From a virus: a stretch of DNA of 23,234 nt. Each line of letters opens with the position of its first letter. Position 1 is the first letter of the stretch. The stretch lies in the IMG/VR virus record IMGVR_UViG_3300028794_000019, positions 1-23,234 of that record. The stretch is one strand, 5' to 3'. The notes under the pieces were generated by a model that saw only the letters and a program-made list of their open reading frames with translations, searched no databases and was not told the DNA's origin. Shown here in pieces: positions 8,846 to 23,234 of the stretch. The position numbers were made by a program, and so were the translations under genes.

Positions 8846-9504
8846 CCGAACAATGCCAGCATGCGCGCCATGATCCCAGGCGCGGCCGGTAGCGGCGCAG
8901 GCACCGGCGGCCGATCTATCATCACCTGGTGCTCGCCGGCCGCCTCCAGCTCGGCAATGGCCTTGGCAATGGCCACGGTGCCGCATTGCTGGCTTACCGC
9001 CGTCGCACTGTAGCGGCCATCGGCGACATATTTCCCAGCCTGATACTGGTTCGTGAAGCTCCACAGGTAAGGCGAGTTCACGGCCTTGGCGACATAGCCG
9101 AACCCGTTATAGCGCTCCCACTCGTAGAGACACCGCTCTATCTCCCAACTGGGCACGCCCTGGAGGCTGTGCGGCGGCATGGTGATGGCGTCGCGCGCGC
9201 TGGCTTCCCAGGTGAACGGAGGCGAGCCAGAGGCCGGCCTACCGGCGGGAACGTGCGTGGTGCGCGCGGTGAGCGGATCGCCGTTGTGGAGATGCCCTTT
9301 CCAGCTCTGGCCACTCTCAAGGCTATGCACCGCGGCGACCCAAGTCCACGGCATGCCGTGTGCCACGGTCGCAGCCGCGACGTACCGCGCCTTGCTCGCG
9401 AGCGCGCGTTGCGCAATGAGCGCGGCGGCCTGTCGCCGCTCCGGCCGCGTGCGCGCCGCGCGCCAGAGATTGCCGTAGCCGACATGGGATTGCTCGTAGT
9501 TCAT
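8839..9504 (-). CDS. Endolysin (lysozyme family)
   Basis: A 221-aa protein that probably cleaves host peptidoglycan at the end of infection. Residues 59-67 (VHSLESGQSW) hold a Glu (E63) in a context typical of lysozyme or transglycosylase folds. This is followed by LHNGDPLTARTTHVPAGRP, PPFTWEASARDAITMP, a WEIERCLYEWERYNGFGY helix and SPYLWSFTNQYQAGKYVADG. That sequence layout is characteristic of the 'lysozyme family protein' group (COG5526-like) found in phages. There is no signal peptide, so export would depend on a holin. The start overlaps the preceding gene as ATGA. The Pro/Ala-rich stretch near the C-terminus precedes a short hydrophobic end. Confidence 0.8.
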   Translation of the reverse strand: MNYEQSHVGYGNLWRAARTRPERRQAAALIAQRALASKARYVAAATVAHGMPWTWVAAVHSLESGQSWKGHLHNGDPLTARTTHVPAGRPASGSPPFTWEASARDAITMPPHSLQGVPSWEIERCLYEWERYNGFGYVAKAVNSPYLWSFTNQYQAGKYVADGRYSATAVSQQCGTVAIAKAIAELEAAGEHQVMIDRPPVPAPLPAAPGIMARMLALFGW

Positions 9505-9926
9505 CGGCTGGTGTCACCCTTGTCGCGCATCGTTACGCCAATTCCCCACCCACGTTCAACACGTTGGGCGAGAAAGTCAATGTCCTTCCTCATGGCGGTG
9601 CGTGTCTCGCTGTTGACCGCATTGACGACGTAGGTAATGGCGCCGACCGATGCGCCGAACAGCGTCACGGCGCCGACAGCCACGCCGATGCCGACCGAGA
9701 CGGCGCGTACCCAGTCCGTGGGCTTATTGAATTCTTGGCGCGTCGTGAGCCCGGTCAAGGCAGTCACCACGGCGTCAAGCTTGCTGTCCAGCCCGGTCAT
9801 TGCCTCGCCCAGGCTGTTGACGCTGCGCTCCACATGGATGAGCCTGTTGCGCTGCTCCATGACTTCGAGCTTTAGGCTTTGCGTGTCGTGCTTTGTCGCT
9901 GTTGGCTGCGCAGCCGTTCCCGCCAT
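9501..9926 (-). CDS. Coiled-coil plus membrane-helix protein of lysis region
   Basis: Start chosen at ATG 9926 (141 aa), which follows AAGGGG; an in-frame ATG at 9950 sits against the upstream terminator hairpin and would add 8 residues. The N-terminal half is a heptad-rich coiled coil (LEVMEQRNRLIHVERSVNSL ...). Next come one or two membrane helices (VSVGIGVAVGAVTLFGASVG AITYVV) and a basic C-terminus. Location just upstream of the endolysin suggests a holin or holin-partner role. A tail-associated membrane protein is also possible. Confidence 0.6.
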   Translation of the reverse strand: MAGTAAQPTATKHDTQSLKLEVMEQRNRLIHVERSVNSLGEAMTGLDSKLDAVVTALTGLTTRQEFNKPTDWVRAVSVGIGVAVGAVTLFGASVGAITYVVNAVNSETRTAMRKDIDFLAQRVERGWGIGVTMRDKGDTSR

Positions 9927-10195: not shown

Positions 10196-12130
10196 TTACG
10201 GTCCGGCGTCTCGCCAAGCACCTGATGAATAGAAATAGAGTTTATTGTTTGTCGTGTTTACCACGATGGGCGCGCGTCCTGTAAATGTTGTTGGCGTTCC
10301 TGTTGGCGTTCCCGCGCACGTTGGAACATATAGAAATCCATCTGTTGCATTTGTGGCAATCGCGGCAGTATTTATCAAAACGTTTCCTGCATTCGTAACG
10401 CGCAGCCGCTCGACGGCCGCAGCGGCGCCATCCGGCGTTGTCGAGATGATCAGCGCGCCCGGCATGTCGTTCGTGCCCGGCGTGCCGTCCGACCTTCCCT
10501 CGATCAAAACGCCGTCAATGAAGCCGGTGCCGTCCGACCCGCAAAAGCGGATGATGCCGAACGTGTCGCTCGCCGTGACCACGGTATGCGCGCCCAGTGT
10601 CGCACTGCGCGACTTGGACAACATCATGCTCGGCCCTGTCGCACCATTCGAGAAGCGGCCCACGCCCATGCCGGCCGCGTCGCCGGATATGACTTGCACG
10701 CGAGGCGTTAGGCTTGGCCCAAGCGCAACGGCCGCAGTGTGGTTCATCACCAATGGGACTTGCCCGGTGATGCGATCGGTGTAGATTTGTAGCGCTGCTA
10801 CGGCGTCAACTACAAGGTTCCAAGCATTTAAGCTTGAAGAGAATGTAAGATAATCATTCCCTGTATCTGCGGGAAATCTATCAACGCTGTCAGTATCTAC
10901 AAGTGCATTACCGTAAATTCGATTATCGGCTTTGAGTGCAATTGCGGCTTGATTTGTATATGTCCCGTGAACAAGATCAATGCCATATTGAATTGGCCCT
11001 ACGGCTTGGAATGCAACATTCGCAGGCTGTGAACCAATGGATTGAACACGGAAACCTCCCCACCATGCTTTAATGGCGCCGGTTATATTGGTACGGTTCA
11101 TAACCATATTCCAACCTAACGCAGCAACATCAAACCCATTATCATGCATTTGCGTTTCGGCAGGATTTAAATACACGCCATTTGCACCGGCAAACAATGC
11201 ACCGGCAAACATAGATAAAGCAGGACTAGCTAAAACGTGCGTTGCGCCCGGTAATGTATTAGCTACAACACCATTAATATAAATACCAAGCATGTCACCT
11301 TGGCCAGCATTGGCCATTTGAATTCTAATAGGTGCGCATGCTGTTCTACCATCATTCCCGGACAACTGCTCGTTGTGCCCAGATGAATTGAAAACATTTA
11401 TATAAATTGGTGACGTTTCTGGATCGGCTTGATAGCCGGTTGCTGGCGTGCCTAGTGTCGCCGAACCAGTAATCCGGTGTTCCATGGCAATTTGCACTTT
11501 GGACAAATCGCCGTTGAATGCTGTCGTGACCGCGTCATGATTGCCAAAGCTCGAAGGCGCCGCTTTGATTGCCGAGAACCATGGACCGCGCAGATTATTG
11601 GAACTGTCGCGGATCTGACCGCTGCCCCAATATGGTCCGTCGAGATCGCTGGCCGTCAGCGTCACATCGTAAATACCCGATGGGACGAACTTGCGCGGCG
11701 CCAATGCATCCGCTGTCGTAACTGCTCCAGTATCGTCGGCACTCCCATTACCGATAGCACCAAAGTCTTTTATACTGAATAAATCAGCCAAGTGATCAAC
11801 GAGTGGCCTAGATGCAGTGGTTCCAGTAGCCGTTACACTAAAACCGTCGAAATCTTCTTCCGCCATAGTGCCGATGCCAACATAGCGCCATGTGCGCGTG
11901 AATGCGCCGAGTGTCGCCGTGATCTGATAGGCGCCGCCAGCCACATGGAACGCGGCGAAGCCGTCCGCATCGGCCGTGATCGGATTGCCCGTCGATACAA
12001 CACCCGCTCGGTCGCTGAACAAGTTAGCGAGCGGATTGCCGGAAGTCTCTTCGCGCACGGTCACGCTCGCGGCCGGCTGCACATTGCCCGCGTCGTCTAC
12101 GATCGTCGCTTGCCAGCGTGCGAGCACCAT
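10196..12130 (-). CDS. Tail fibre or tailspike protein
   Basis: A 644-aa protein. ATG 12130 is chosen because it overlaps the hub gene's stop as TAATG and follows GGAGG. Residues ~1-90 form a beta-rich attachment domain (VLARWQATIVDDAGNVQPAA ... YQITATLGAFTRTWRYVGIG). Residues 121-134 (KDFGAIGNGSADDT) are the start signature of pectate-lyase-like beta-helix tailspikes. The middle is a long beta-rich region with no visible catalytic motif. The end (TGRAPIVVNTTNNKLYFYSS GAWR) is a common fibre C-terminal motif. The protein probably recognises a surface glycan and may cut it. The middle third is clearly more A/T-rich than both ends, as expected for a swapped receptor-binding module. Confidence 0.85.
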   Translation of the reverse strand: MVLARWQATIVDDAGNVQPAASVTVREETSGNPLANLFSDRAGVVSTGNPITADADGFAAFHVAGGAYQITATLGAFTRTWRYVGIGTMAEEDFDGFSVTATGTTASRPLVDHLADLFSIKDFGAIGNGSADDTGAVTTADALAPRKFVPSGIYDVTLTASDLDGPYWGSGQIRDSSNNLRGPWFSAIKAAPSSFGNHDAVTTAFNGDLSKVQIAMEHRITGSATLGTPATGYQADPETSPIYINVFNSSGHNEQLSGNDGRTACAPIRIQMANAGQGDMLGIYINGVVANTLPGATHVLASPALSMFAGALFAGANGVYLNPAETQMHDNGFDVAALGWNMVMNRTNITGAIKAWWGGFRVQSIGSQPANVAFQAVGPIQYGIDLVHGTYTNQAAIALKADNRIYGNALVDTDSVDRFPADTGNDYLTFSSSLNAWNLVVDAVAALQIYTDRITGQVPLVMNHTAAVALGPSLTPRVQVISGDAAGMGVGRFSNGATGPSMMLSKSRSATLGAHTVVTASDTFGIIRFCGSDGTGFIDGVLIEGRSDGTPGTNDMPGALIISTTPDGAAAAVERLRVTNAGNVLINTAAIATNATDGFLYVPTCAGTPTGTPTTFTGRAPIVVNTTNNKLYFYSSGAWRDAGP

Positions 12131-14454
12131 TAGACGTTCCTCCAAATCAAAACGATTATACCGTTGCCGCCGGTTCCGCCGACACCCACACCGCTACCAC
12201 GGCCGCCACCACCCGCGCCACCGCCGAAAGCACCGCCCGCGCCACCATTCGCCGAGCCGCCACCGCCCGCGCCACCGCCGCCTGGTCCGGCCGCAGTGAT
12301 AGGAGCAATCGTTTGCGTCCAAATCTGCTCACCGGCGCCACCGGGTCCACCTTCTATACCGTTACCGCCGCCGAACCCACCGCCACCCTCATCACCGCTC
12401 GGCGTGCTGCTGTTGCCTCCACCGAAATTGAAACGGTTATTGCCGCCGGGTTGCGTACCAGTGTCGCCGCCATCAAAGCCGCCATCAGCCCCACCACCGC
12501 CGCCACCTTCGCCGCCGCCGCCATTTGTTCCACGTGATCCCTCAGCCCCATCGCCATTTGGCCCGGCGGCTCCCCCACCGCCGCCGCCGCCATTGCGCGA
12601 GCCGCCGTTGCCGCCGTCACCCGCGTCGCCGCCGGAATGCTTAGTGGTGCCGATACCAGATGCAGACGCACCGCCAGCGCCGCCATCCGTTACCGCGCCC
12701 GTAGTGCCTCCCTTGGCCCCTACGCTGGACGCGGCGAGGCTGGCGCCATTGAACCAGGTGTCAGTACCGTTGACGCCGGCCGCACCACCTACACCCACAT
12801 GATAGGTGAGCATCGCGCCCGGTGTGAGCACCTTGTTGACTATGGCCGAGTACGCACCTGCACCGCCGCCGCCGGCCGCCAAAACCGCGAATATAGGCGT
12901 ACCGCCGCCGCCGCCGCCGCCGATCGTGTGAATGGAATTATCGGCGTCGTTCCATGTCGCGGGAACTTCAAACGTTGTGCCGCTCAACAGGAACACCACG
13001 TTCACCAGCGCCGGCAAGTCGCCGCTCGCAAGCATCTCTTCCGCTTCGACCTCGATGCGGTCACTGTAGATTGCAATCTGCGTGACCTGGATCAACGCAG
13101 GAATGGCCTCGCCGAGCGCGTTTTGGCTTGCCCACCACCTTAGCGTATATCCCGTCACCAGGCTGATGAGTTCGCTCGGCGCAACTGAAAACTTGAAGTT
13201 CCGCGGCGGATCTTGGAAGCGGGAAAGCTGGATAGCATTTAGCCGCTCGGCCGCGTTCTCGGTCTCGATCCATGTTCCATCGATCTTGACGATTTGCGAT
13301 GAGCCGTATTCGTCTTCCTTCTCCAGGTTGACGCTCGCGAGCGCGGCGCGGAAGTTGTCTTCCTTGGCCCCCAGGTTAGTAGGGTCACGCGTCCCGTAAT
13401 ATGTCCAAATCTGAGAGATACGCGTCGCCGGTTGCTCCTTCACGCGCATCGATCCGGCGATAATGTTGTCCTCATCGAACGTCGCGGTATCCGTGGAGAT
13501 CTCGCGCAGGACGGCCAAGCCGATCTTAAGCGCGCGATCGTCCCACCACACCGCAAGCGCGGCTTGCTCGATCATCTCGGCCACCAGCTGGTTGACGCTC
13601 GTTGGCTCCGTGATCGTCCGTGCGTAGATCACGCCGAGGTTTGCCGACGTCTCGGCCTGCCATGTAGCGAGATCGATGTAAGACGGATCCACGCCGGCGT
13701 AACTGGTCAAAAGATCGTAGATGATATCGGCCGCATCATCGCCCGTATAGCGCAACACCAATTGGGCGCGGTCGCCAGCATCATGCGCCGAGGCGATCGA
13801 CCCGAGTTGACCGCGCACGATGGTCAGCACATCGCCCGCGCGCGTGAAGCTGACCACCTCCCGACCGCCAAGCGACACATGACCAGATGCAGGATATTCC
13901 GCATTACCAATCCCCGACGGTGAGAGCGTTGCCGTGGTCGTGCTGATGTTGATGGAACCGGCGAGCGATCCGTTCGACAGCGCGGGCGCCTGGGCGCGAT
14001 CATCGTCAAGGAACTTGAGGATGTCCTTGCCCTCGATCACATAGGCGCCGCTGTTCGGATCTGGTCCGGCGCTCGCATCGATCAGGTAATGACGAATATC
14101 CATGTCGGCCAGCGCTTGGCCAACCGAGCCGCGAATGATCCGCATCGGGCAACCGCGCAACGTGGTCCCATACCGCCCGCGCCATTTCCCCCAAAACGTT
14201 CCTTGGCTGTACGGCTCGCCGTCGAAGATGTGACGATGATCCATGAACGTCACAGAGATCTTTGCCCGCTGGCCCAGGTCTTTACCGAGCGAGACGAGCA
14301 TGGGCGTGAAGCTCACGGACGAGATAGACGGAATGCAATCAATCTCTGGTGGCAAGTAATCCGTTGGCAACGCAAAGCGGAATGTGCTCGTGGGCTGTGG
14401 GCTAGCAATTGCGAACGATGGCACATCGATCTCGACATAGGTAAGCGCGAACAT
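12130..14454 (-). CDS. Tail hub/host-specificity protein with glycine-rich adhesin domain
   Basis: A 774-aa protein. ATG 14454 overlaps the previous stop as TAATG; an upstream in-frame start at 14538 would read into that gene. Residues ~1-490 look like a baseplate/hub tail protein of lambda-like siphophages (e.g. GKWRGRYGTTLRGCPMRIIR, WWDDRALKIGLAVLREIS). Residues ~490-774 switch to a Gly-dominated region beginning TTFEVPATWN ... HTIGGGGGGG and ending GGTGGNGIIVLIWRNV. This is the pattern of phage glycine-rich domains, where polyglycine helices form a receptor-binding tip. Fusion of hub and Gly-rich tip in one chain is notable. The - strand partner downstream is the fibre, so two host-recognition proteins lie side by side. 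Confidence 0.8.
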   Translation of the reverse strand: MFALTYVEIDVPSFAIASPQPTSTFRFALPTDYLPPEIDCIPSISSVSFTPMLVSLGKDLGQRAKISVTFMDHRHIFDGEPYSQGTFWGKWRGRYGTTLRGCPMRIIRGSVGQALADMDIRHYLIDASAGPDPNSGAYVIEGKDILKFLDDDRAQAPALSNGSLAGSINISTTTATLSPSGIGNAEYPASGHVSLGGREVVSFTRAGDVLTIVRGQLGSIASAHDAGDRAQLVLRYTGDDAADIIYDLLTSYAGVDPSYIDLATWQAETSANLGVIYARTITEPTSVNQLVAEMIEQAALAVWWDDRALKIGLAVLREISTDTATFDEDNIIAGSMRVKEQPATRISQIWTYYGTRDPTNLGAKEDNFRAALASVNLEKEDEYGSSQIVKIDGTWIETENAAERLNAIQLSRFQDPPRNFKFSVAPSELISLVTGYTLRWWASQNALGEAIPALIQVTQIAIYSDRIEVEAEEMLASGDLPALVNVVFLLSGTTFEVPATWNDADNSIHTIGGGGGGGTPIFAVLAAGGGGAGAYSAIVNKVLTPGAMLTYHVGVGGAAGVNGTDTWFNGASLAASSVGAKGGTTGAVTDGGAGGASASGIGTTKHSGGDAGDGGNGGSRNGGGGGGGAAGPNGDGAEGSRGTNGGGGEGGGGGGADGGFDGGDTGTQPGGNNRFNFGGGNSSTPSGDEGGGGFGGGNGIEGGPGGAGEQIWTQTIAPITAAGPGGGGAGGGGSANGGAGGAFGGGAGGGGRGSGVGVGGTGGNGIIVLIWRNV
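12140..12925. repeat. Low-complexity GCC/ACC triplet region
   Basis: This segment encodes the glycine-rich domain on the - strand and so reads as dense GCC, ACC and CCG triplets on the + strand, with local runs such as consecutive CCG units near 12901-12921. Imperfect triplet repetition makes slippage and length change between related phages likely. Confidence 0.8.
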
Positions 14455-15293
14455 TAAATGACGCCTTCCATCTGGAAATCGATTTGCATCATACCATTGT
14501 TGCGCTGGTTCTTGGGTATCGCATCTTGCGACAACCAAGCGTAGCCGATCTCATTGGGATAACTACTCGGCCGCCATGCAAAGAAAAATGGGATTTCCTC
14601 GGCCGCCAGAACGAACGGCGCCATATATGTCCGGTACCAGTCCGGCGTTAGGTTTTGCAACGAGACTTGCGTGCCCACCTTGCGGCCGAGCACGATCCTG
14701 CCGAGGAAGTTTCCGCTCACGCTACGGTTGGATACCGGCATGATAGCGCGGCCCATGGTAATGGGCGTGTGGCCAACATACATGCGGCGCTGGAGAACCA
14801 GGAGTTCACCGGCGTAGAGCACGGCCGCAGTCGGCGCCGCGCTACCGGGTTGCAGGCGAAGCCGGACGGCCGCGTAGGCGAGCTTGGGAAACCGGAACAG
14901 CGCAGGACCATCGCTCGGCAGGATCACCGGCGCAATCAGTTCCTCCCAACTATCAGGGCTTGCATCAATATCGAGAAACTCGACGCTAACCGCAATCTGC
15001 GCCGTAAAGAAATTATGTCGCGCAAATGCAACATAGTCGATAGCTTCCACATCATTGTTTGTTATCGTCAAATATTCATCGTCTTCCGGCGAAGATACCA
15101 GCCCCTTCCAACGAAGATGTGTTGCCGGATTAGTGAGATTGATTACCGGAAAATCTGGATCTTCCGTTGTCGATGTAAGGTTCGCAGGCACAACGATGTT
15201 ATCATAACCGATCAATGGATTATCGGCCGTGATAATACCGCCACCCGAGATGACATCGGATATTACAACACTGGACGAGATGACAATGCTCAT
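14454..15293 (-). CDS. Distal tail/baseplate structural protein
   Basis: A 279-aa protein starting in an ATGA overlap with the tape-measure stop. The N-terminal half (NLTNPATHLRWKGL ... DYVAFARHNFFTAQIAVSVE) resembles the beta-sandwich start of siphophage tail-tip proteins ('NL.NP.....W... I.. .HN.'). The C-terminal half carries GRIVLGRKVG, WYRTYMAPFV, PFFFAWRPSSYPNEIGYAW and ends in an MQIDFQMEG strand, a pattern seen in phage proteins after the tape measure. It likely forms part of the tail tip connecting tube to hub. The family is inferred from position and pattern. Its first ~100 codons are A/T-richer than the rest. Confidence 0.65.
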   Translation of the reverse strand: MSIVISSSVVISDVISGGGIITADNPLIGYDNIVVPANLTSTTEDPDFPVINLTNPATHLRWKGLVSSPEDDEYLTITNNDVEAIDYVAFARHNFFTAQIAVSVEFLDIDASPDSWEELIAPVILPSDGPALFRFPKLAYAAVRLRLQPGSAAPTAAVLYAGELLVLQRRMYVGHTPITMGRAIMPVSNRSVSGNFLGRIVLGRKVGTQVSLQNLTPDWYRTYMAPFVLAAEEIPFFFAWRPSSYPNEIGYAWLSQDAIPKNQRNNGMMQIDFQMEGVI

Positions 15294-17032
15294 TTGATTA
15301 ACACCTGTCCGCCGTCTTTCTGATATGCAATCAATACATTAGCCAGTTCACGAACCTGACCGCCGCTATACTTGTCGCTGTCATTGATACCTTGGATCGT
15401 GAGCAGTTGTGGCGAGTTGCCCGCACCGCCGCCACTGTTGGCCGAGGCACCGCTTGACGAACTTCCGCCGCCACCCGAGGACGACTTAGACGTACTGCGG
15501 ATATTGGCCACCTGGGCGAGGCCGGCCGCGACCACGGCCGCCGCAGCCGCATAGTTGAATGGAGGCGGGTAAGCGGCGAGTGCCTTGGTGGCTCCCTCGA
15601 ATGTGTTGATCAGCGCCGAGGCAATGGCCACGCCCTTAGAGTGGTCGAACACCTTCTCCAGATTGCCAGCAATGTTCGATGCCATGCTCGCATAGGCGCC
15701 GACAGCAACGAGCGTCGCTTTCTGCATCGCTCGACCATAGGTATCCGCATCGATCGCGCCAGCCTGCAACAAACGATTGAGCTTTTCTTGCTGCGTAATC
15801 ATCAGTTCTTCCGGCGTGGAGATGTCCTGAATGATCTTCAAGCCCTCACGCCGCAAGGTATTGTAGCGGTCCAACTCCTGGTTCATCTGGCGTTGCGCGT
15901 CGCGCTCGGCCGCGAGGCGCTTTGCCTTCTCGTCATCCGTTTCTTTGATGTCGGGGAGCTTGTCTGTCGGCGGCGCCGCGTTCGGCCCCATCGCGCCGCT
16001 TGTCGTGCGGTCAAGCTCACCTTGCGCGATGGCGAGTTGCTGATTGATCGCGTCGAGTTGCCCCTGTCGCGTCTTAACGATGTTTTCCAGGCCCACGGCG
16101 CCCGGTTGCTTGGCGAGCCGTTCCTGTGCATCGGATAGGGCGTTCGTGGCGTCAGCGGCTTTCGTGGTCAGGCTCTCGACGGCTTGGGCGGCCGTGGTGG
16201 TGAACGCGCTTTTGATCGCCTCGCTGATGCCCTGGATTGAGACGATCACCACCCGCGCCACATCGACAAGGCCGAGCAGCAATGGCGTGACCAGGATCAC
16301 CGCGTTTTTGAGCGTGACGCCAAACGCTTCCGAGCTTTCATCCACGGCAACCGTGAGCAGGCGGATTGCCTCGGCGAAGTCGGTTCCAACTTTGACGGAA
16401 GCGCCAGACATCACCAGACCAAGGCCGGCGGCCTCGGCTGACATCTTGGTAATGCCCGCACTGCCGTTCGACAACAAGCGGGTAAGCTGTTCTGTATTTG
16501 CACCGAACGCCGCGTTTGCCAACTCGCTGCGCTTGGCCTCAGTTGTCAATTCATTGTAATGATCGGCCAGCAACTTGAGCGCTGCTACAACGTCGGTTGT
16601 GCTGCGAAGTGTCGTTAGAAACGCCGCATCGTTTTCTTTCAGCTTATCAACAAGTTCGCCGCTTCCATCATGCGCTTCCTTGAGGCGATCTTTGAACGTC
16701 TTCAACGTCTCGTTAAATGCCTCATGATCGAGCCCGGCTTGACGTGCGACGTGGCCGAGTTCTTGCAACTGCGTCGAGGTCACGCCGATATCGTCGGCCG
16801 TTTTGGCTAGGTCGTGCAAGCTGTCGGCGACCTTCACGATACCGGCGATTGTGAAGCCTGCGCCGATTGCGGCTATCCCACCCTTCAGCGCCGTGCCGAT
16901 CAGGCCGCCCACATTGGTCGCAGTGGCCGCAAGCGACTTGATGGTGTCCTCGGCCTTGCCCACGCCCTTGACGAAGTCGGCCGCATCGAAGCCGAGCCGA
17001 ACGCGCAACGCACCAATTTCGCTTTCAGCCAT
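15290..17032 (-). CDS. Tail tape-measure protein
   Basis: A 580-aa protein that sets tail length and is threaded through the tube. The N-terminus (GALRVRLGFDAADFVKGVGK) is typical of tape-measure starts. Long Ala-rich helices follow, with hydrophobic segments (GGLIGTALKGGIAAIGAGFT; TLKNAVILVTPLLLGLVDVA), a coiled coil around residues 290-430 and a Ser/Gly-rich linker (SSSGGGGSSSSGASANSGGG) near the C-terminus. The segment KVFDHSKGVAIASALINTFE ... followed by an Ala-rich stretch is common near tape-measure C-termini. It is short for the family, implying a short tail. Its ATG overlaps the frameshifted chaperone extension. Confidence 0.88.
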   Translation of the reverse strand: MAESEIGALRVRLGFDAADFVKGVGKAEDTIKSLAATATNVGGLIGTALKGGIAAIGAGFTIAGIVKVADSLHDLAKTADDIGVTSTQLQELGHVARQAGLDHEAFNETLKTFKDRLKEAHDGSGELVDKLKENDAAFLTTLRSTTDVVAALKLLADHYNELTTEAKRSELANAAFGANTEQLTRLLSNGSAGITKMSAEAAGLGLVMSGASVKVGTDFAEAIRLLTVAVDESSEAFGVTLKNAVILVTPLLLGLVDVARVVIVSIQGISEAIKSAFTTTAAQAVESLTTKAADATNALSDAQERLAKQPGAVGLENIVKTRQGQLDAINQQLAIAQGELDRTTSGAMGPNAAPPTDKLPDIKETDDEKAKRLAAERDAQRQMNQELDRYNTLRREGLKIIQDISTPEELMITQQEKLNRLLQAGAIDADTYGRAMQKATLVAVGAYASMASNIAGNLEKVFDHSKGVAIASALINTFEGATKALAAYPPPFNYAAAAAVVAAGLAQVANIRSTSKSSSGGGGSSSSGASANSGGGAGNSPQLLTIQGINDSDKYSGGQVRELANVLIAYQKDGGQVLIK

Positions 17033-17243
17033 CGCCGTATGCCTCGTAATAAATGTCCGCTACGTCATCCTCGGACATGCCGCCGCAGTATTCTGGCGAG
17101 GGTTTCAGATGATCAAGCCACCACCATATTTCTATAGGCTGCATTGACCAGAAATCCGAACGGATTACGCGGCTTGTGCAGACTAGCGCTTGGTATGCGC
17201 CCCTGACTGTTTTTCCTTGGTGCGCCCGCGAGGCGCGCGGGCG
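17025..17243 (-). CDS. Tail assembly chaperone gpT-like extension (-1 frameshift)
   Basis: A 72-codon frame with no clear start of its own, lying -1 relative to the gpG-like gene and open from the GGGAAAC heptamer to a TGA that overlaps the tape-measure start by 8 bases. It encodes SDFWSMQPIEIWWWLDHLKP and, near its end, GGMSEDDVADIYYEAYGDG. Trp-rich 'FW.M...E.WWW' followed by 'MSEDDVADIY' is the kind of short signature seen in gpT-like tail chaperone domains. With residues 1-116 of the upstream product it would give a 188-aa fusion. Such G/GT pairs bind the tape measure and recruit tail tube subunits. Without frameshifting this stretch would be an unexplained 150-base gap. Confidence 0.75.
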   Translation of the reverse strand, partial: RPRASRAHQGKTVRGAYQALVCTSRVIRSDFWSMQPIEIWWWLDHLKPSPEYCGGMSEDDVADIYYEAYGDG

Positions 17244-17590
17244 TTTCCCCTTGCTGGTGCCTCGACAACATCGGCCGCAGCCGCGAACACGGAAGGCGGT
17301 ATCATCATCACGAGCAGCGTCTCGACGGCCCGGCGGATCTGTGATGACAGGTCACCGGCGAACATGCCGGCGTAAACCTCATCATCGCTCACGCTCGCGC
17401 CAGCGTAGCGAAGGATATCCCCATACGTGCGCGACAACGTAGTAAGCGAAAGCTTTTTACTGTTTACCGCGTCAGCAAGATCTTGAAACGTGAAGTATTC
17501 TTCAATGATGGCGATAGCACCAAGGATGCGATTTGGCGGGATGGTGTAAGTCTGATCTCCCCAATCTAACTCGACTTGTTTAAATATCAC
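17183..17590 (-). CDS. Tail assembly chaperone gpG-like
   Basis: A 135-aa protein starting at GTG 17590 in a GTGA overlap with the gp10-type gene and preceded by AGGAA. The N-terminus (MIFKQVELDWGDQTYTIPPN) and helical middle (LADAVNSKKLSLTTLSRTYG) match small tail chaperones located between the tail tube and tape measure. The C-terminal ~20 residues after codon 116 are basic and Pro/Arg-rich (ARAPRGRTKEKQSGAHTKR), which fits an in-frame product that ends just after a frameshift site. It likely works with its longer frameshifted form during tail assembly. Confidence 0.75.
   Translation of the reverse strand: MIFKQVELDWGDQTYTIPPNRILGAIAIIEEYFTFQDLADAVNSKKLSLTTLSRTYGDILRYAGASVSDDEVYAGMFAGDLSSQIRRAVETLLVMMIPPSVFAAAADVVEAPARGNARAPRGRTKEKQSGAHTKR
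17223..17249 (-). promoter_or_regulatory. Programmed -1 frameshift signal
   Basis: On the - strand the heptamer GGGAAAC (17249-17243) sits in the zero frame as G-GGA-AAC, codons 115-116, an exact X-XXY-YYZ slippery site close to lambda's GGGAAAG. It runs directly into CGCCCGCG (17243-17236), which pairs perfectly with CGCGGGCG (17230-17223) around a 5-base loop. The hairpin has almost no spacer from the slip site, shorter than usual, so its role as a stimulator is less certain than the heptamer. Confidence 0.75.
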
Positions 17591-17997
17591 TTTCCTATCG
17601 CTTTCTGTATTTCAGACCATAATTCATTTTTGACATCGCTAAGCAATTGATCCTTGCCCGCGTCCCATGCCGGCCGCATGAAAGGTTGGGCAGGAAGACT
17701 GGACGTGCCGAACTCTTGCAAAGTGGCTTGAGGTAGCGCACCCGCTCCGGCGTATATGTTGACGTTGTCACCCTCACCACGAGCGAGCAAGTATTGACGA
17801 CGAGATAACCTTGTCGATACTTTGATAGAACGCTTCAACTTCCCGGACCGTCGAGGGGCAAGCGACCGAGCTTTGTCGGCGATCGGCGCAAGCACCTTCC
17901 GGCCGACCCGCTGGAGCGTGCTGCGCTGCACGCCCTTTGGAAGCTCTTTGAATTTGGCGAGCAGCTCGGCAAGCCCCTCGATCCTGAGTTCGTCCAT
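17587..17997 (-). CDS. HK97 gp10-family tail/neck protein
   Basis: A 136-aa protein with the family's typical layout: N-terminal IEGLAELLAKFKELPKGVQR, basic middle with ARSLAPRRSGKLKRSIKVST, then the signature ATLQEFGTSSLPAQPFMRPA near residues 92-111. HK97 gp10-type proteins act at the head-tail joint or in tail completion. The start lies just after the tail tube stop. The gene normally comes before the tail terminator and tube; here it comes after both, which is an unusual order. Confidence 0.88.
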   Translation of the reverse strand: MDELRIEGLAELLAKFKELPKGVQRSTLQRVGRKVLAPIADKARSLAPRRSGKLKRSIKVSTRLSRRQYLLARGEGDNVNIYAGAGALPQATLQEFGTSSLPAQPFMRPAWDAGKDQLLSDVKNELWSEIQKAIGK

Positions 17998-18000
17998 GGC

Positions 18001-18417
18001 TTAGGCCGGGCTGCCAGGCGTGTAAGTGACCGTGCCGCTACTGTTGAGCGTCGCCTCAAACGTCATGGCGTCCTTATAGCTCGCGGTTTCCTTGAAGCTG
18101 GCCATGAAGAACGTACCCGTCAACGTCGCGCCATCGGGGAAGATCAGCGTCAACGCCTGCATCCGGTTTGTCGAAGACGCGCCAGCGAACCAATCGTTCT
18201 TGAGCCGCGCGTTCTTCGTCACTCCGTTGATGCTGATGTTGACCTGGTTCTCGCCCGCGATGGTGAGAAGCGTGCGCCATCCGTCATCCTCATCGCTGGT
18301 GATGTCGATCGGCTCGCCGTTGAGTTCGATACCCTTCTCGCGCACACCAGGAATTTCCACCTGTGGGCTGTCATCGCCCCACAGGAACGTAACTTGTCTG
18401 CCTGCAACTGCGACCAT
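18001..18417 (-). CDS. Major tail (tube) protein
   Basis: A 138-aa protein with a good AGGAG ribosome binding site. Motifs include NGEPIDITSDEDDGWRTLL, VNISINGVTKNARLKNDWFA and LTLIFPDGATLTGTFFMASF, which match TP901-1-type (Phage_tail_2) tube proteins, a beta-sandwich that stacks in hexamers around the tape measure. Length fits the family. Its abundance in virions would predict strong translation. Located just after the DUF3168 gene, as expected. Confidence 0.88.
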   Translation of the reverse strand: MVAVAGRQVTFLWGDDSPQVEIPGVREKGIELNGEPIDITSDEDDGWRTLLTIAGENQVNISINGVTKNARLKNDWFAGASSTNRMQALTLIFPDGATLTGTFFMASFKETASYKDAMTFEATLNSSGTVTYTPGSPA

Positions 18418-18418
18418 C

Positions 18419-18805
18419 TTAGACGCTCCTGCTCAAAACGATGAAATCCATAGAAACCCTATACTCGTACGCGGCTTGATTTGCACCACCCTCGCGCAAA
18501 TCGCGCACGACGTCGAGCGAGATGTAAGGGAAGTTCGTGTCCTCATATCCCGAGATCTGGGCACGCACCTCGCGCGCTACCGCCGTCGAGGCCGAGAAGC
18601 TGCTCGCCCAGGTGTCAATCTGGACGCGAACTTCGTCCAGCCCCACCTCGCCTTCATCAGCATACAGCGGCCCACCTGACACCTTGTTGAGCGTCACGGC
18701 AGGTAGCGCGGCGGCCTGCTCGCGCGATCCCCAATTCATGCGAGTGCCCACCAGGGCAACAAGCGGGCTGCTCGCTTGCAGCACCGCCAGCAACAGCTCT
18801 TCCAT
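18419..18805 (-). CDS. DUF3168-type tail terminator/completion protein
   Basis: A 128-aa protein starting in a TAATG overlap with the adaptor gene. The pattern VLQASSPLVALVGTRMNWGS ... LPAVTLNKVSGG ... VRVQIDTWA ... VREVRAQI and a final VSMDFIVLSR strand fits DUF3168 proteins, which form the ring at the top of the tail. Position between the adaptor and the tail tube agrees. Confidence 0.85.
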   Translation of the reverse strand: MEELLLAVLQASSPLVALVGTRMNWGSREQAAALPAVTLNKVSGGPLYADEGEVGLDEVRVQIDTWASSFSASTAVAREVRAQISGYEDTNFPYISLDVVRDLREGGANQAAYEYRVSMDFIVLSRSV

Positions 18806-19155
18806 TACGTGGTCTCCACCGCCGCGATGTCATCGCGAGCAACCGTGTCAATCTCGATCCAGCGGCGCCGTTGCTTCTGACGAACGCCGGTGATGTTGTA
18901 AGTGCGGCCGTCGAAAACGATGCGATCGAGCGGATTGAGCGTCGCGAGCGTGGGGCTATAGCGGACCGTGAAGCGCGTCGAGAGTTGCGCACCCACCTCC
19001 TGGGCGCGGAACGCCTCACCGGCGGAGACGTCGGCGCGTTGTGCCTTGCGCTGGGCTAGCGTGGTCCAAGCCTCCACGCCTTCGCCCAAGCCGTTACGCT
19101 CGATCGTGACGCGCTGCAAGGTGATAACGTCCGTGAGTATCGCCGCGCCTGTCAT
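18805..19155 (-). CDS. Head-tail adaptor (SPP1 gp16-like)
   Basis: ATG 19155 is chosen because it overlaps the preceding stop as ATGA; an in-frame start at 19233 lies inside the upstream gene. The 116-aa product contains ITLQRVTIERNGLGEGVEAW, AQRKAQRADVSAGEAFRAQE, RFTVRYSPTLATLNPLDRIV and FDGRTYNITGVRQKQRRRW. These match the beta-barrel head-closure family (Phage_H_T_join). It joins the portal/connector to the tail. It is the first recognisable structural gene after the biosynthetic cassette and is directly coupled to it. Confidence 0.85.
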   Translation of the reverse strand: MTGAAILTDVITLQRVTIERNGLGEGVEAWTTLAQRKAQRADVSAGEAFRAQEVGAQLSTRFTVRYSPTLATLNPLDRIVFDGRTYNITGVRQKQRRRWIEIDTVARDDIAAVETT

Positions 19156-19967
19156 AGCCCCACCGCCTCGGCACAAAAGCCGCTTTCCATTTCTTCCCGC
19201 GAGTATTGGCACCAGGCGAGCCGCGCCGCCCATGCCGATCGGTCGGGAAACGCTAGTCTGTCAGTTGGCACAATATCATGAGCCGCAATATCCCACACCA
19301 TGCTGCCTGGATCCATGGCCACGGTCGCGCGGCCGGCGAGCACCGCATCCACGCCGCTGTTGCTGTTGAAGGTCACCACCAGACCGGCATTGTCGAGCAC
19401 CTCGGCGAGGCTACCGCGCGCCTCCTTCATTCCGTGACACTGGCCAACCACACCTCGCGCGCCTGGGTGCGGCCGAAACCGCACGTCGTAGCCGGCGGCG
19501 ATACAGCCGGCCGCCGCCGTCCGATACCAGTTCCCAATGTTGACGTGCTTCACGCTTTGGTCGCCGAGTACCTGCCCCATGATCACCGCCGGACCGCGCC
19601 GCGTCGAGAAGTCTGCCCACGGCCACATGATGAGATCCAGCTCGGCGAACCGCTCAATGCCGACACCCGGCGGGATGACGAACCGGCCGCGACCGTTGAG
19701 CCCACCGCCAAAGCTAACGCTGGTCATGGTGAAGCGGTCGCCCAGATAGCCGCGCTCCAGAATGCACACCTCGCCGCCGGCCGCTTGCTGTTGGCCGATG
19801 GCCACCTTGTTGCGCACGCCCCACATCACAATGAGATCGGCCGGCTTGTAGCTGGTGCTGACTTCCACGCGCCAGCCGCACCGCGCCAATCCCTTGGCAA
19901 AGGATCCGCCGAAGCTGGCGTGATGCGGCAAGCTCTCGTTGGCGATGATGACCGCTCTACGCTGCAT
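19152..19967 (-). CDS. Capsule-synthesis-like glycosyltransferase
   Basis: A 271-aa protein. The C-terminal half has RFRPHPGARG (163-172) and VVTFNSNSGVDAVLAGRATV (197-216) followed by AMDPGSM. This arrangement, a 'RxHP' motif and then 'T.NS..G.DA.LAG.P', is typical of capsule polysaccharide synthesis proteins of the KpsC/KpsS type (Capsule_synth), which use a GT-B fold to move Kdo or other sugars. The N-terminal part (AVIIANESLPHHASFGGSFA ... DLIVMWGVRN) fits the other Rossmann half. It is short for the family. It overlaps the upstream gene by 11 bases and the head-tail adaptor by ATGA. It likely adds sugar to an unknown acceptor. Exact donor is unknown. Confidence 0.6.
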   Translation of the reverse strand: MQRRAVIIANESLPHHASFGGSFAKGLARCGWRVEVSTSYKPADLIVMWGVRNKVAIGQQQAAGGEVCILERGYLGDRFTMTSVSFGGGLNGRGRFVIPPGVGIERFAELDLIMWPWADFSTRRGPAVIMGQVLGDQSVKHVNIGNWYRTAAAGCIAAGYDVRFRPHPGARGVVGQCHGMKEARGSLAEVLDNAGLVVTFNSNSGVDAVLAGRATVAMDPGSMVWDIAAHDIVPTDRLAFPDRSAWAARLAWCQYSREEMESGFCAEAVGL

Positions 19968-20535
19968 GCGTAACCTCGTGGTGCTTAAACGCCTTGATTG
20001 CGCTGTTGGGATTGCAGTTGATCACCTCGATCCCTGCTCGCTCATAGTGCCGCGCGACCCGCGTGAAGCTGTCCACCACCTCACGCACCGCCTTACGAGG
20101 AAACGGCTTGTCGTCAAAGAAGTAGCTGTAAGGCTGGTGGAAGTCATAGCCGTAGAGGTAGATGCGCTCAGCGCCGAGCGCTGCGGCGAGGTTGATGGCG
20201 ACATATCCTGAGCAGCCCGGCGTGGTGCCTGGTCCGCTCGACAGCGTAGCGCCGTCGAGCATCGGCATTGCCTGGGCAACCCGCCGCCACAGCTGGACGC
20301 GCCAGCCTTCAAAGTGGTGGAAATTCTTATGGTAGGTGCAAATGTGCAACTCGGTCGAACTGGGCAAGCGGGTAATGCGCTCGCGCGCGGCGCGGGCGTA
20401 GTTGTGATCCAGGGTGAACCAGGCATGGCACGGCTTGAGCAAGCCGGCGTCGTTCACGCCGATCACCAGGCCGGGCAACTGCTCCGTATCGAGATCCTTC
20501 GCCGATGGGCCGCCACCGATGATGCACGCGATCAT
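19957..20535 (-). CDS. DUF115/MptE-like Rossmann protein
   Basis: A 192-aa protein started at ATG 20535 in an ATGA overlap; an in-frame GTG two codons earlier is possible. It begins MIACIIGGGPSAKDLDTEQL with a Gly-rich nucleotide-binding loop, continues VIGVNDAGLLKPCHAWFTLD and has SGYVAINLAAALGAERIYLY followed by GYDF. This resembles the DUF115 / 6-hydroxymethylpterin pyrophosphokinase-like fold and motility accessory factors (Maf) that add nonulosonic acid to flagellin. Its neighbour at 20532-21239 has a related layout. Together they suggest transfer of an activated sugar or phosphate-linked group. The real reaction is unknown. Confidence 0.55.
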   Translation of the reverse strand: MIACIIGGGPSAKDLDTEQLPGLVIGVNDAGLLKPCHAWFTLDHNYARAARERITRLPSSTELHICTYHKNFHHFEGWRVQLWRRVAQAMPMLDGATLSSGPGTTPGCSGYVAINLAAALGAERIYLYGYDFHQPYSYFFDDKPFPRKAVREVVDSFTRVARHYERAGIEVINCNPNSAIKAFKHHEVTHAA

Positions 20536-21239
20536 GCCCACACCTTCTCGGCAAACCGCAGGCCGAGGCCGAGCCGCCGCGCCATGCTCTCAAGCAATAG
20601 CCGCTCGGCGATATAATCGTGATTGCCTTCCTTCGTCGCGCCGGCCTTGTAGCCGTCCATGCCCCAAAAGCCGCCGTGCGCCTGATAGGTGGGCGAGAAG
20701 GCGGCGTCAGGGGCGAGCGCGACACCGGCGGCGATGTTGTCGAACCCCACCAGGATGAGTTCGCCGCCGGGCGCCGCGTTCTCCATTGCCCAGCACGCCG
20801 CGATACCGCCGCGCGTGAGTTCCCAGTTCCCCGTCTCGCCACAGCCCTCGATACCGGCCGCACGGCCTTCCTGCTCGATCCACCGGCTATGCTGCTCGAC
20901 GGTAATGGAGCGCTCTGGCAACGTCGAGAACGTCCCGCGCGGGCAATTGAGGATGGATGCTACCCATGCCTCGGCCGGCATGCGGCGGTTATGCTCGCGC
21001 CATTGCTTGATAATCTTGGGATGCGTTTCGATTATGCCGACGTCGTAGCGCTCGCCGTAATCGGCCGGATCCTGCCAATCCCAATTCCACATGCGCACGA
21101 CGCGGTCACAAGCGTCTATGCGAGTTCCCCAACCTCGGCCCTCGGGAGATCGGCCGTGGCCGATGATGGCCGTGGTTCCTGCCAGGCTTTGACGTGATTG
21201 AAGCCGTGCAAAGTTCCGTCTGTATTGCAATTGCTGCAC
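20532..21239 (-). CDS. GT29/DUF115-like glycosyltransferase candidate
   Basis: The recognisable domain begins TTAIIGHGRSPEGRGWGTRI DACDRVVRMW, like the N-terminal loop and 'ID..D.V.R.N' strand of GT29-type sialyltransferase-like proteins. It ends ELILVGFDNIAAG ... HDYIAERLLLESMARRLGLG. Start is uncertain: GTG 21239 follows GAGGGG well (235 aa), TTG 21230 is next, and a CTG at 21185 would start right at the domain. Any choice but the last gives a 115-124 base overlap with the radical SAM gene. The frame stays open upstream to 21425, but that part lies inside the radical SAM gene. Likely acts on a sugar donor with the other cassette enzymes. Confidence 0.6.
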   Translation of the reverse strand: MQQLQYRRNFARLQSRQSLAGTTAIIGHGRSPEGRGWGTRIDACDRVVRMWNWDWQDPADYGERYDVGIIETHPKIIKQWREHNRRMPAEAWVASILNCPRGTFSTLPERSITVEQHSRWIEQEGRAAGIEGCGETGNWELTRGGIAACWAMENAAPGGELILVGFDNIAAGVALAPDAAFSPTYQAHGGFWGMDGYKAGATKEGNHDYIAERLLLESMARRLGLGLRFAEKVWA

Positions 21240-22054
21240 GGATTGATCCCCTCGCGGCCCGCGAATAGCTGACGCCGCCGCTTGTGCATAGCTGGAGATG
21301 TCCAGATTTCCCAAAGACTTTGATGCACCAAGTTGCCGTAGCGAACGCGTTTCGACCAATCTTGCACACAAAGCAGCACGTCCCCATTCCAGTCCACAGT
21401 CATTTGATAGGCGAGATAGTGACACGGCCGCTCCGGCTGTACCGCATCTTGCTTACCCACCGTCACGGCTCCCGCGCGGTTTGTCAGCTTGAGCCCGAAA
21501 CCATCTTCCTCGGTGTGCCATCGATCGCGCAGAATATAACCGTCACCCTCGACAAGCCCGGCGCCGTCGAGCATCGCCTTGAACCTGAGCACCTGGTGCG
21601 GCCCGTCATACATGCTCACGACGATGCAATCGAGCCCAAGGCGCGCGAGATCGCGGGCGCCGTCCTCGGTCAATCTGTCGCCGTTCGTCACCAGCTCGAC
21701 GCGCCAGCCGTGGCCGCACAGCTCGGCGACGATGGCGAGGAAGGCCGGATGCAACATCGGCTCGCCGAACCCGCACAGCACAACGGCGCCCTGGAAATCG
21801 AGGCCGAGCAGTTCCGTGCGGATCCGCTTGACCAGGCCGAGCGGCATGTGAAGCGCCTGGTTCGGATAGGTCGCGGCGTCAATGCGCGGGCAGAAGACGC
21901 AAGGGCGCTTGCTACCGGCGGAACGGTTGCACAACTCCGTCAGGTTCAAATCGATCCAGCTCGGCATAGGCGAGCCGCCAGGCCCTGTCTGCACGTCGTC
22001 AATGAACCCCGACTTGCGGCGCAGGTTCGCCTTTGTTGCCTCGGTCAGCGCCAT
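21116..22054 (-). CDS. Radical SAM/SPASM-domain protein with unusual cysteine spacing
   Basis: A 312-aa protein started at ATG 22054 in a TGATG overlap. C42, C52 and C55 (LCNRSAGSKRPCVFCPR) should bind the 4Fe-4S cluster, but as CX9CX2C instead of CX3CX2C. The SAM-binding GFGEP follows at residues 95-99, then ELVTNG and VVSMYDG strands. The C-terminal SPASM-like part has RPCHYLAYQMTVDWNGDVLL CVQDW, GNLVHQSLWEIW and CSNCNTDGTLHGFNHVKAW. Such proteins use a 5'-deoxyadenosyl radical for difficult C-H chemistry, with a second cluster in the SPASM region. The last ~20 residues after KAW overlap the next gene and look like an added tail. Substrate is unknown, and a sugar or peptide is plausible. 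Confidence 0.8.
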   Translation of the reverse strand: MALTEATKANLRRKSGFIDDVQTGPGGSPMPSWIDLNLTELCNRSAGSKRPCVFCPRIDAATYPNQALHMPLGLVKRIRTELLGLDFQGAVVLCGFGEPMLHPAFLAIVAELCGHGWRVELVTNGDRLTEDGARDLARLGLDCIVVSMYDGPHQVLRFKAMLDGAGLVEGDGYILRDRWHTEEDGFGLKLTNRAGAVTVGKQDAVQPERPCHYLAYQMTVDWNGDVLLCVQDWSKRVRYGNLVHQSLWEIWTSPAMHKRRRQLFAGREGINPCSNCNTDGTLHGFNHVKAWQEPRPSSATADLPRAEVGELA

Positions 22055-22725
22055 CACGCAACCTTCGCCAGCTTGCGGAAGATCATCAACCCGTCATGCA
22101 GGCCCCCGAGCGCATCCTCGCGGTAGCGGGCTTCAAGCAACTGCAAGCGCGGCCAATGGGAGAACGCCTCCACCGCGCCGCGAAAGCCGTTGATCGTCTT
22201 GAGCGCATAACGCTGTTCGCCAATCGGCAAGAAGGCTTGATGCACAACAAATAAACCGCCGTCCGCAAGCATACCCATACTGTTATCAAGCGACGCAAGG
22301 AACTTCTCGTAAGGCTCTGCCACATACCAAAGCATTTGCGACCAGATGACTATATTGAATGCATGCTCAAATGCCGGAACAGGTTCGGATATGTCAGCAT
22401 GAATAAATTGCATGCTCGGATGGATTGCAGCGGCCTGTTGCAATGCGGCTATACTTATATCCATCCCGCTCCACTTGCCGCCGCACTCGCTCCAAAGCTG
22501 GGCGAGCACATGACCGTGACCACAACCGATCTCTAGCCCCTCGACGCGCTCGCCGAGCATGCGGTTCAAACGGCCCATGAGGTGGTCACGCGCCCAGCGG
22601 TAATAGGGCGCGCGCTCGCCGCTCGTGGCGCTCTGTCCCCACGGATCCGCATCAGTTTCGTAAAGCCGCTCGAAGTCGCCTACGAACTGGAGCGTGCCGT
22701 TCTCAAGTTCTTGGAATACCGTCAT
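22054..22725 (-). CDS. Class I SAM-dependent methyltransferase
   Basis: A 223-aa protein with motif I LEIGCGHGHV (64-73), an acidic residue after the next strand (GMDISIAALQQA), FIHADI and the motif FNIVIWSQMLWYV. The layout resembles NodS-like N-methyltransferases and other small-molecule methyltransferases, not DNA methylases: no DPPY or PC motif is present. The start overlaps the aminotransferase stop by 23 bases, and the two may act in order, placing and then methylating an amine. The central part (22230-22450) is more A/T-rich than the ends. Confidence 0.85.
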   Translation of the reverse strand: MTVFQELENGTLQFVGDFERLYETDADPWGQSATSGERAPYYRWARDHLMGRLNRMLGERVEGLEIGCGHGHVLAQLWSECGGKWSGMDISIAALQQAAAIHPSMQFIHADISEPVPAFEHAFNIVIWSQMLWYVAEPYEKFLASLDNSMGMLADGGLFVVHQAFLPIGEQRYALKTINGFRGAVEAFSHWPRLQLLEARYREDALGGLHDGLMIFRKLAKVA

Positions 22726-23234
22726 AAACGCTCCAGAATTTCTGCATCAGTTCGATGCTACCGCATGTGACCATGAAATAGCCGCCGTCGAGCCCGGTCA
22801 CATTGCGCATTAGCACGCCGCGCGCGGCCATCTGCTCGCATATGCCGGCCGGATCCGGGTATTCCACCAGGACGCTATTGCCATGCAACCCCCACGCGGG
22901 CAAGCCAGACATTTGGAACTGACGACGCAACCAATCACGGCCGCCGATCACCTCGCTTGTCCAGCCTTCCACCTCAAGCCAGTTGTCCATAAGCACACGA
23001 GCGGTTGCCATCGATAGCGCGCCCACTTCGCCGCTCGGCCGGATTGCGTCCAAATAATCGAGCGTCGAGCGTGCGCCGACAGCATAGCCAAGGCGGATGC
23101 CGGCCGCGCCGAACGCTTTAGAGAAGGTTCGCAGCACGGTCAGGTTTTTGAACTGGGCATGGCCGCCAATAGCGCTCTCGGCGCCGAACCCATGATAAGC
23201 CTCATCGACGGCAACCCATGTGTCGGGAAGCCGT
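22703..23234 (-). CDS. PLP-dependent aminotransferase, 5' truncated (HisC-like)
   Basis: The frame is open to the window edge, so the N-terminal half is missing; about 177 residues are visible. RLPDTWVAVDEAYHGFG holds the Asp-Glu-Ala-Tyr strand that contacts the cofactor, and LRTFSKAFGAAGIRLGYAVG carries the Schiff-base lysine (in FSKAFG) and the following G.R.GY loop. This matches class I/II aminotransferases of the histidinol-phosphate aminotransferase subgroup. The C-terminal domain has GLHGNSVLVEYPDPAGICEQ and RGVLMRNVTG. In a sugar/small-molecule cassette it likely transfers an amino group to, or removes one from, a keto or phosphorylated intermediate. Confidence 0.88.
   Translation of the reverse strand, partial: RLPDTWVAVDEAYHGFGAESAIGGHAQFKNLTVLRTFSKAFGAAGIRLGYAVGARSTLDYLDAIRPSGEVGALSMATARVLMDNWLEVEGWTSEVIGGRDWLRRQFQMSGLPAWGLHGNSVLVEYPDPAGICEQMAARGVLMRNVTGLDGGYFMVTCGSIELMQKFWSVYDGIPRT

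Follow-up and report, generated by a model that had tools for sequence, protein, structure and literature searches.

A putative ulosonic acid-modifying gene cassette in a phage head operon

Described relatives and the gene chain

The subject of this analysis is a chain of six genes at the right end of IMG/VR virus record IMGVR_UViG_3300028794_000019 (a complete record of 23,234 bp, here called the window), which runs into a phage head operon and combines three putative sugar-editing enzymes with three predicted transferases of the cytidine monophosphate (CMP)-ulosonate type. Among the closest described systems are the Maf transferases of flagellin O-glycosylation, cytoplasmic enzymes for nonulosonic acids with a Cst-II-like central domain (MptE/DUF115); they use CMP donors and transfer N-acetylneuraminic acid (Neu5Ac) and 3-deoxy-D-manno-octulosonic acid (Kdo) onto protein Ser/Thr in E. 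coli, and CbMaf, which modifies protein Ser/Thr, accepts both CMP-Neu5Ac and CMP-Kdo; a linked Kdo adds 220 Da (PMC11339370). By contrast, the corresponding phage proteins are single-domain proteins (~200 amino acids) whose PF01973 scores stay under the cut-off and which lie beside a capsid gene, with a donor and an acceptor that we infer. In mycobacteriophages Che8, Corndog and Myrna, phage glycosyltransferases modify virion proteins (Freeman et al. 2023, as cited in PMC12363180). Virion glycosylation as such is thus already known from mycobacteriophages. The present locus differs in having transferases that appear by sequence to be of the CMP-ulosonate type, accompanied in a head operon by a putative editing set of radical S-adenosylmethionine (SAM) enzyme, aminotransferase and methyltransferase; the only cultured host found among its relatives, Mesorhizobium loti, is Gram-negative.

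The individual enzymes have described counterparts as well. Retaining Kdo transferases share two motifs, QXXXD, with the nucleophile, and (K/R)XHP, which binds CMP (PMC10148158, PMC12887879). The phage protein KPS, a putative enzyme of this kind, has both in the same order as KpsC (GT107), WbbB (GT99) and KrkA (GT140), with a weak profile match; it differs from these in its length (~270 amino acids) and in its place in a head operon rather than a capsule or O-antigen locus. With the GT29 and GT42 sialyltransferases, the window shares the predicted fold and motifs L, S and VS of its GT29-like protein and the DUF115 profile match to CstII, whereas the phage proteins have ~215 and ~190 amino acids, fall below the cut-offs of the family models and are not accompanied by phage genes for a CMP-sialic acid pathway. 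BtrN, the 2-deoxy-scyllo-inosamine dehydrogenase of the butirosin pathway, is a two-electron alcohol-to-ketone oxidase with one auxiliary cluster on four cysteines (PMC9012708). The radical SAM enzyme of the window, likened to BtrN by sequence profile, has the same twitch architecture, four auxiliary cysteines and a partner aminotransferase, but its subgroup has the cluster motif CX9CX2C and the phage aminotransferase is HisC-like. Lastly, orf7 of the cultured Pseudomonas phage D3, already annotated as an alpha-2,3-sialyltransferase, is a homologue (32% identity) of DUF115a, the transferase found behind the capsid gene in relatives of the window, and lies between capsid and adaptor genes. Unlike the loci described below, the D3 head region is without an annotated aminotransferase, radical SAM, GT29-like or KPS gene, and the head region of SfII, a phage whose capsid is related, contains no DUF115a homologue. 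D3 also has orf12 (possibly a glycosyltransferase) and orf13 (a methyltransferase) between head closure and an HK97 gp10-like gene (L092, 7394-8789; L numbers denote the loci compared).

In the window, early genes (DNA polymerase, single-strand binding protein) occupy the left part on the plus strand and virion genes the right part on the minus strand. The cassette and the virion genes downstream of it are as follows.

22703..23234, minus strand: AT, HisC/CobD-like pyridoxal phosphate (PLP) aminotransferase; C-terminal 176 amino acids, with the 5' part past the contig end
22054..22725, minus strand: MT, class I SAM methyltransferase, weakly NodS-like (PF13649 2.8e-10; PF05401 NodS 0.0015)
21116..22057, minus strand: rSAM, BtrN-like twitch/SPASM radical SAM enzyme (PF04055, PF13186; BtrN 4m7t 6.9e-27; alignment A1)
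20532..21188, minus strand: GT29-like sialyltransferase-fold protein, by fold and motifs; start uncertain, frame open to 21425
19957..20535, minus strand: DUF115b, GT42/DUF115-type transferase (PHROG 4603, 'alpha-2,3-sialyltransferase', 1.9e-16)
19152..19967, minus strand: KPS, KpsC/WbbB-type putative retaining Kdo transferase, with QVLGD (QXXXD) and RPHP ((K/R)XHP)
18805..19155, minus strand: head closure/head completion protein (PF05521 1.5e-19; PHROG 25 7e-17)
18419..18805, minus strand: tail terminator/tail completion protein, downstream virion gene (PF11367 1.2e-12; PHROG 347)
18001..18417, minus strand: tail tube protein, downstream virion gene (PF06199 5.3e-16)

The chain of six cassette genes has no gap as far as the head closure gene, and only AT is incomplete, at the contig end. 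From the coordinates of the open reading frames, AT and MT overlap by 23 bp, MT and rSAM by 4 bp and DUF115b and KPS by 11 bp; GT29-like and DUF115b join in ATGA at 20535-20532, and the ATGA between KPS and head closure is read directly in the sequence at 19155-19152. An earlier reading, made from the sequence alone (the sequence-only reading), had described this chain of six overlapping genes correctly, including the terminal ATGA; all six frames are on the minus strand at the position it gave. The partner in the ATGA junction, which it called a head-tail adaptor, is the head closure protein. It also placed the GT29-like gene in the overlapping chain. The gene does start within rSAM, but its start codon is unclear: the conserved N-terminus offers neither ATG nor GTG, with CTG in the window and TTG in the related contig L002. 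The gapless KPS/head closure junction is common to the window, L020, L047, L048, L053 and L054, while L002 has a gap of ~180 bp. A search inside the cassette revealed no promoter-like site on its strand, and searches of the window for RNA families and tRNAs returned none.

Predicted activities of the six proteins

GT29-like and KPS have no accepted family match; GT29-like is placed by fold and motifs, and KPS tentatively by its motifs. The AlphaFold model of GT29-like has a predicted local distance difference test (pLDDT) score of 90.8, and the top ranks of its Foldseek search are exclusively GT29 sialyltransferases (ST6GALNAC2 at 7e-6, ST8SiaIII, ST3Gal1). By VIA, the model aligns with CstII at Z 13.4 and with ST6GALNAC2 at Z 12.8 (root mean square deviation 3.5 over 179 residues); an MptE-type HPPK reaches Z 9.4, and all other non-sialyltransferase folds stay below 4. 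The sialyl motifs L, S and VS (HX4E), as generally defined, are kept in 14 sequences (alignment A5), with one sequence ending before VS; in full-length rows they take the forms GHGRSPEGxGWGxxID..VVRMW, TRGxxAACWA..LVGFD and HDxxxE. Placing the protein by profile against Protein Data Bank (PDB) sequences gave chance matches only; its assignment comes from fold and motifs. In three relatives, as judged by sequence pattern, a GT29-like domain is fused to a C-terminal DUF115/GT42-like domain (L023 9995-11227, L024 9995-11266, L033 11972-13204), which suggests that the GT29-like and DUF115 proteins may work together.

A joint family profile of DUF115a and DUF115b (A4) matches CstII at 2.4e-5. All 18 single-copy members of the KPS family have both QXXXD and (K/R)XHP, 30-33 residues apart from D to H, and the profile matches WbbB (5fa0) weakly at 0.008 and KpsC at 0.67. 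Thus, by sequence and predicted structure, all three transferases of the window resemble enzymes that use CMP-ulosonates (sialic acid or Kdo).

The other three proteins are the putative sugar-editing enzymes. The window part of AT matches PF00155 at 8.8e-14, and the full-length L002 protein (345 amino acids) matches HisC in the PDB (3euc) at 8.7e-22. Against TIGR01141 hisC, AT scores 96.6 bits with a cut-off of 276.55 (for the C-terminal part only), with the PLP-lysine region TFSKAFGAAGIRLGY present; because the equivalog score is not reached, we regard AT as a HisC relative and not as HisC. For rSAM, the nearest PDB structure is BtrN (4m7t, 6.9e-27, near full length), followed by BlsE and DesII, all of them sugar or cyclitol enzymes. 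Four cysteines (C212, C230, C274 and C277) are invariant in A1, as for one auxiliary cluster. The cluster motif is CX9CX2C in the window, L002 and L003 and CX3CX2C in L005 and L007; in the window (21890-21931, C43-C56), the former amounts to six residues added in an otherwise strictly conserved site. Named peptide maturases were considered and rejected, as the NCBIfam scores are far under every cut-off.

A ketone, as BtrN makes, would be the natural substrate of AT, the PLP aminotransferase encoded nearby. Bacterial relatives of rSAM support this editing logic of rSAM, aminotransferase and methyltransferase: they lie in glycan loci, some of them nonulosonic-acid loci. In L036, the genes around rSAM encode NeuA, two copies of NeuB, a GNAT and an aminotransferase of class I/II. 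In L032, its neighbours are two methyltransferases and an aminotransferase of class III, and a possible DUF115-like protein is found in the vicinity; NeuA-like genes are near rSAM also in L034, L037 and L041. The Kdo8N pathway (KdnA/KdnB) is a precedent for the amination of Kdo.

Conservation in phage head modules

The contig L002 (38,972 bp), which comes from another record, repeats the gene set, with proteins that are 91-98% identical. Its order is terminase, portal, protease, major capsid protein, a small protein, DUF115a and a gp6-like connector, followed by AT, MT, rSAM, GT29-like, an extra gene that is not in the window, DUF115b, KPS and head closure. Between the window and L002, the ratio of nonsynonymous to synonymous substitutions (dN/dS) is 0.02-0.20 for the cassette genes and 0.056-0.065 for the adjacent virion genes; the cassette genes evolve under purifying selection. 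A host glycan locus misassembled onto a phage, which the sequence-only reading had named as a possible refutation, is rejected, because L002, as an independent contig, and many relatives have the same junctions. Scattering of the genes in other phages, the other possible refutation, is not what is found either, as relatives in ~12 phage lineages keep them together. The suggestion of further pathway genes past the right end is for the most part not confirmed: upstream of AT, L002 has the gp6-like connector, a single further DUF115 transferase and then the gene of the major capsid protein.

In ~12 distinct phage lineages the genes are arranged as AT-MT-rSAM-(0-2 genes)-GT29-like, and none has them scattered. 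The block stands beside HK97-type capsid genes in L002, L003, L007 and L020, beside a P22-type coat gene (named by eye) in L005 and L021, beside Mu-type portal/head morphogenesis genes (PHROG 145, 241) in L017, L024 and L033 and beside lambda-like portal/protease genes (PHROG 21 portal) in L026; the head type of L027 is not assignable, and L018, cut inside rSAM, has no MT. L033 lies inside the genome of Mesorhizobium loti DSM 2626, the sole cultured host found.

Among viral proteins related to the L002 capsid protein with at least 57% identity, 32 come from contigs that extend far enough behind the capsid gene, and in 29 of these DUF115a follows it. Most of the DUF115a-bearing relatives also have KPS before head closure (exceptions L060 and L074), and seven distant capsid relatives (38-45%: L083-L086, L088-L090) have neither. 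Thus, a core pair of DUF115a and KPS, largely conserved in these phages, flanks an island whose contents vary between related phages: AT-MT-rSAM-GT29-like-DUF115b in the window, a methyltransferase in L050, proteins without assigned family in L048, and, in L053 and L082, a P-loop kinase gene together with methyltransferase-like and possibly ParB-like ones. The island of L055, behind its connector gene (11855-18965), holds four tandem KPS-like paralogues, two methyltransferase genes, one of them FkbM, a gene for a CMP-sugar cytidylyltransferase (PF02348 3.3e-17) and an endonuclease/exonuclease/phosphatase-family gene. L081 (2379-5642) likewise has four consecutive KPS-like paralogues. In the arrays of both loci the KPS motifs are partly lost, in L081 QXXXD and HP, and the L081 proteins possibly have other activities.

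More widely, relatives of the DUF115 transferases are encoded in 396 viral contig stretches. Among 74 distant DUF115 loci, a recognisable head or connector gene lies within the fetched stretch in 50, always on the same strand, and at most 1 kb away in 36, counts that are a lower bound and lack a proper random control; the nearest head gene is most often that of the capsid. In 50,697 GenBank phage records, GT29-like and DUF115b have no match, KPS has a relative in one environmental podovirus and rSAM matches only Campylobacter phage proteins (29% identity). The latter are the BtrN-like rSAM proteins of the cultured phages CP20, CPt10, vB_CjeM_WX1 and others (H1-H6), ~29% identical to that of the window.

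A possible glycan on head proteins and its alternatives

The sequences show the order and families of the genes, their folds and motifs, their conservation under purifying selection and their recurrent position in head modules; from these we infer a donor, a reaction order, a product, an acceptor and a benefit as follows. The substrate would be an ulosonic acid, either host Kdo or a nonulosonic acid, in free form or bound to CMP. The BtrN-like rSAM would oxidize one of its hydroxyls to a ketone, the HisC-like aminotransferase would convert the ketone into an amine, and the methyltransferase would then methylate it. In the cytoplasm, virion proteins under assembly would receive a short acidic glycan from CMP-ulosonate transferases acting in series, with DUF115a first as a Maf-like protein O-transferase, followed by KPS, GT29-like and DUF115b. 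Because Maf acts in the cytoplasm, where phage heads are built, glycosylation of virion proteins is plausible, and the acceptor would likely be the major capsid or another head protein. Because the island varies, related phages would differ in the coat of their particles, with possible effects on recognition, charge or stability. We consider that the balance of the evidence tips slightly towards this glycosylation of the head module, in which Maf-like transferases put an edited host-supplied ulosonic acid on head proteins. The sequence-only reading had proposed a late pathway for an aminated and methylated sugar that is attached to something; that outline fits the evidence and is partly supported. 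The reading had missed the CMP-ulosonate type of the three transferases, the likeness of rSAM to BtrN and the occurrence of the neighbouring core DUF115 gene in cultured phages such as D3. A more specific version is tentative and carries clearly less weight: the DUF115a-KPS island as a cassette resembling antigenic variation, an rSAM route from alcohol through ketone to N-methylated amine, a new amino-ulosonic acid on the capsid, and a head-module machine shared by many unrelated phages.

Several observations weigh against glycosylation of the head. Late placement by itself is no proof of a virion target. Pfam GT29 (PF00777) does not match the window protein and gives the L023 protein 14.6 bits with a gathering score of 23, and since the cut-off is not reached we use the name GT29-like and not GT29. 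The DUF115 proteins also fall short of the gathering score of PF01973 (MptE), with 16.8-29.8 bits versus 34.6, and the AlphaFold model of KPS is poor (pLDDT 50). Three capsid relatives (L073, L076 and L077; 59-61%) have no DUF115a behind the capsid gene. A Ser/Thr-Pro loop of the capsid was considered as a general acceptor and rejected: it occurs in the DUF115a-bearing clade (one event) and is absent from the D3 and S20 capsids, and it thus points to no acceptor site. A CMP-sugar synthetase is encoded in only one of 20 related records and is absent from the window and from G001, so that the donor would have to come from the host, likely as host CMP-Kdo or CMP-nonulosonate.

The cassette might instead remodel a host surface glycan (lipopolysaccharide (LPS) or capsule), for instance to block superinfection or the binding of progeny to debris. 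Phages are known to alter host O-antigen, Kdo transferases normally act on LPS or capsule, KPS resembles the KpsC/WbbB group, which acts on capsule and O-antigen, and the bacterial rSAM relatives lie in surface-glycan and nonulosonic-acid loci. However, the genes lie inside the head operon of unrelated phages and overlap head genes, which is not the position of lysogenic-conversion genes; none of the six is of the membrane flippase or acetyltransferase type usual in conversion, and late expression falls after the time when exclusion pays most. Late placement and the capsid neighbour weigh against this host-surface function, which is unlikely but keeps an appreciable share of the probability. 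Somewhat less probable is a glycan on tail or receptor-binding proteins instead of the head. Tail tube and tail completion genes lie directly downstream, and in mycobacteriophages both tail tubes and capsids are reported to be glycosylated (PMC12619734); yet DUF115a adjoins the capsid gene in head types as different as the HK97 and P22 types, and the predominance of capsid genes as nearest head genes at distant DUF115 loci argues for the head as well.

Hypermodification of DNA, with rSAM, PLP enzyme and glycosyltransferases acting on bases of packaged DNA, is very improbable. Such enzymes are found in known phage base-modification pathways, for which PMC12619734 cites Pyle et al. 2024, and the islands of L053 and L082 have a P-loop kinase and possibly ParB-like genes. 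The transferases of the window are of sialyl/Kdo type, however, and none of 18 related records (several of them fragments) has a thymidylate synthase family protein, as compared to nine of 14 control genomes; a 5-hydroxymethyluracil (5hmU) kinase family model matched no control genome either and is uninformative. The three targets that the sequence-only reading had left side by side can thus be ranked, with the virion first, host surface glycan second and packaged DNA, for lack of a thymidylate synthase-type enzyme, weakest. We give hardly any weight to a diffusible natural product or modified peptide without a glycan link. SPASM radical SAM enzymes often mature peptides, and rSAM has sub-threshold NCBIfam matches to maturases, but no precursor-peptide gene is recognised in the cassette, the structural matches of rSAM (BtrN, BlsE, DesII) are all small-molecule enzymes, and the cassette also encodes three transferases that share one donor type.

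If the head is indeed glycosylated in the way suggested, decoration with ulosonic acids, so far tied to bacterial flagella, capsules and LPS, would be common in phage head assembly, and the 'alpha-2,3-sialyltransferase' label on the D3 head-operon gene would be explained. Radical SAM chemistry would gain a role in the assembly of virus particles, and a source of compact bacterial transferases with a GT29-type fold would be available. It would also become testable why close phages pair the same capsid gene with different sugar-editing genes.

A few further gene groups were seen alongside these loci. The variable islands of L053 and L082 have the P-loop kinase and the possibly ParB-like protein at 8677-9700 and 8089-9082, respectively, an arrangement that recalls DNA base modification clusters. 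In L006 (5200-7560), a small contig of another phage type, 2-oxoglutarate (2OG)-like, KPS-like and BtrN-like rSAM genes stand in a row with apparent structural genes around them. In the sequenced Tetraselmis viridis virus S20 (L094, 3233-10663), two sialyltransferase-like genes, two glycosyltransferases and one methyltransferase lie near the presumed capsid gene and form another head-module glycan island.

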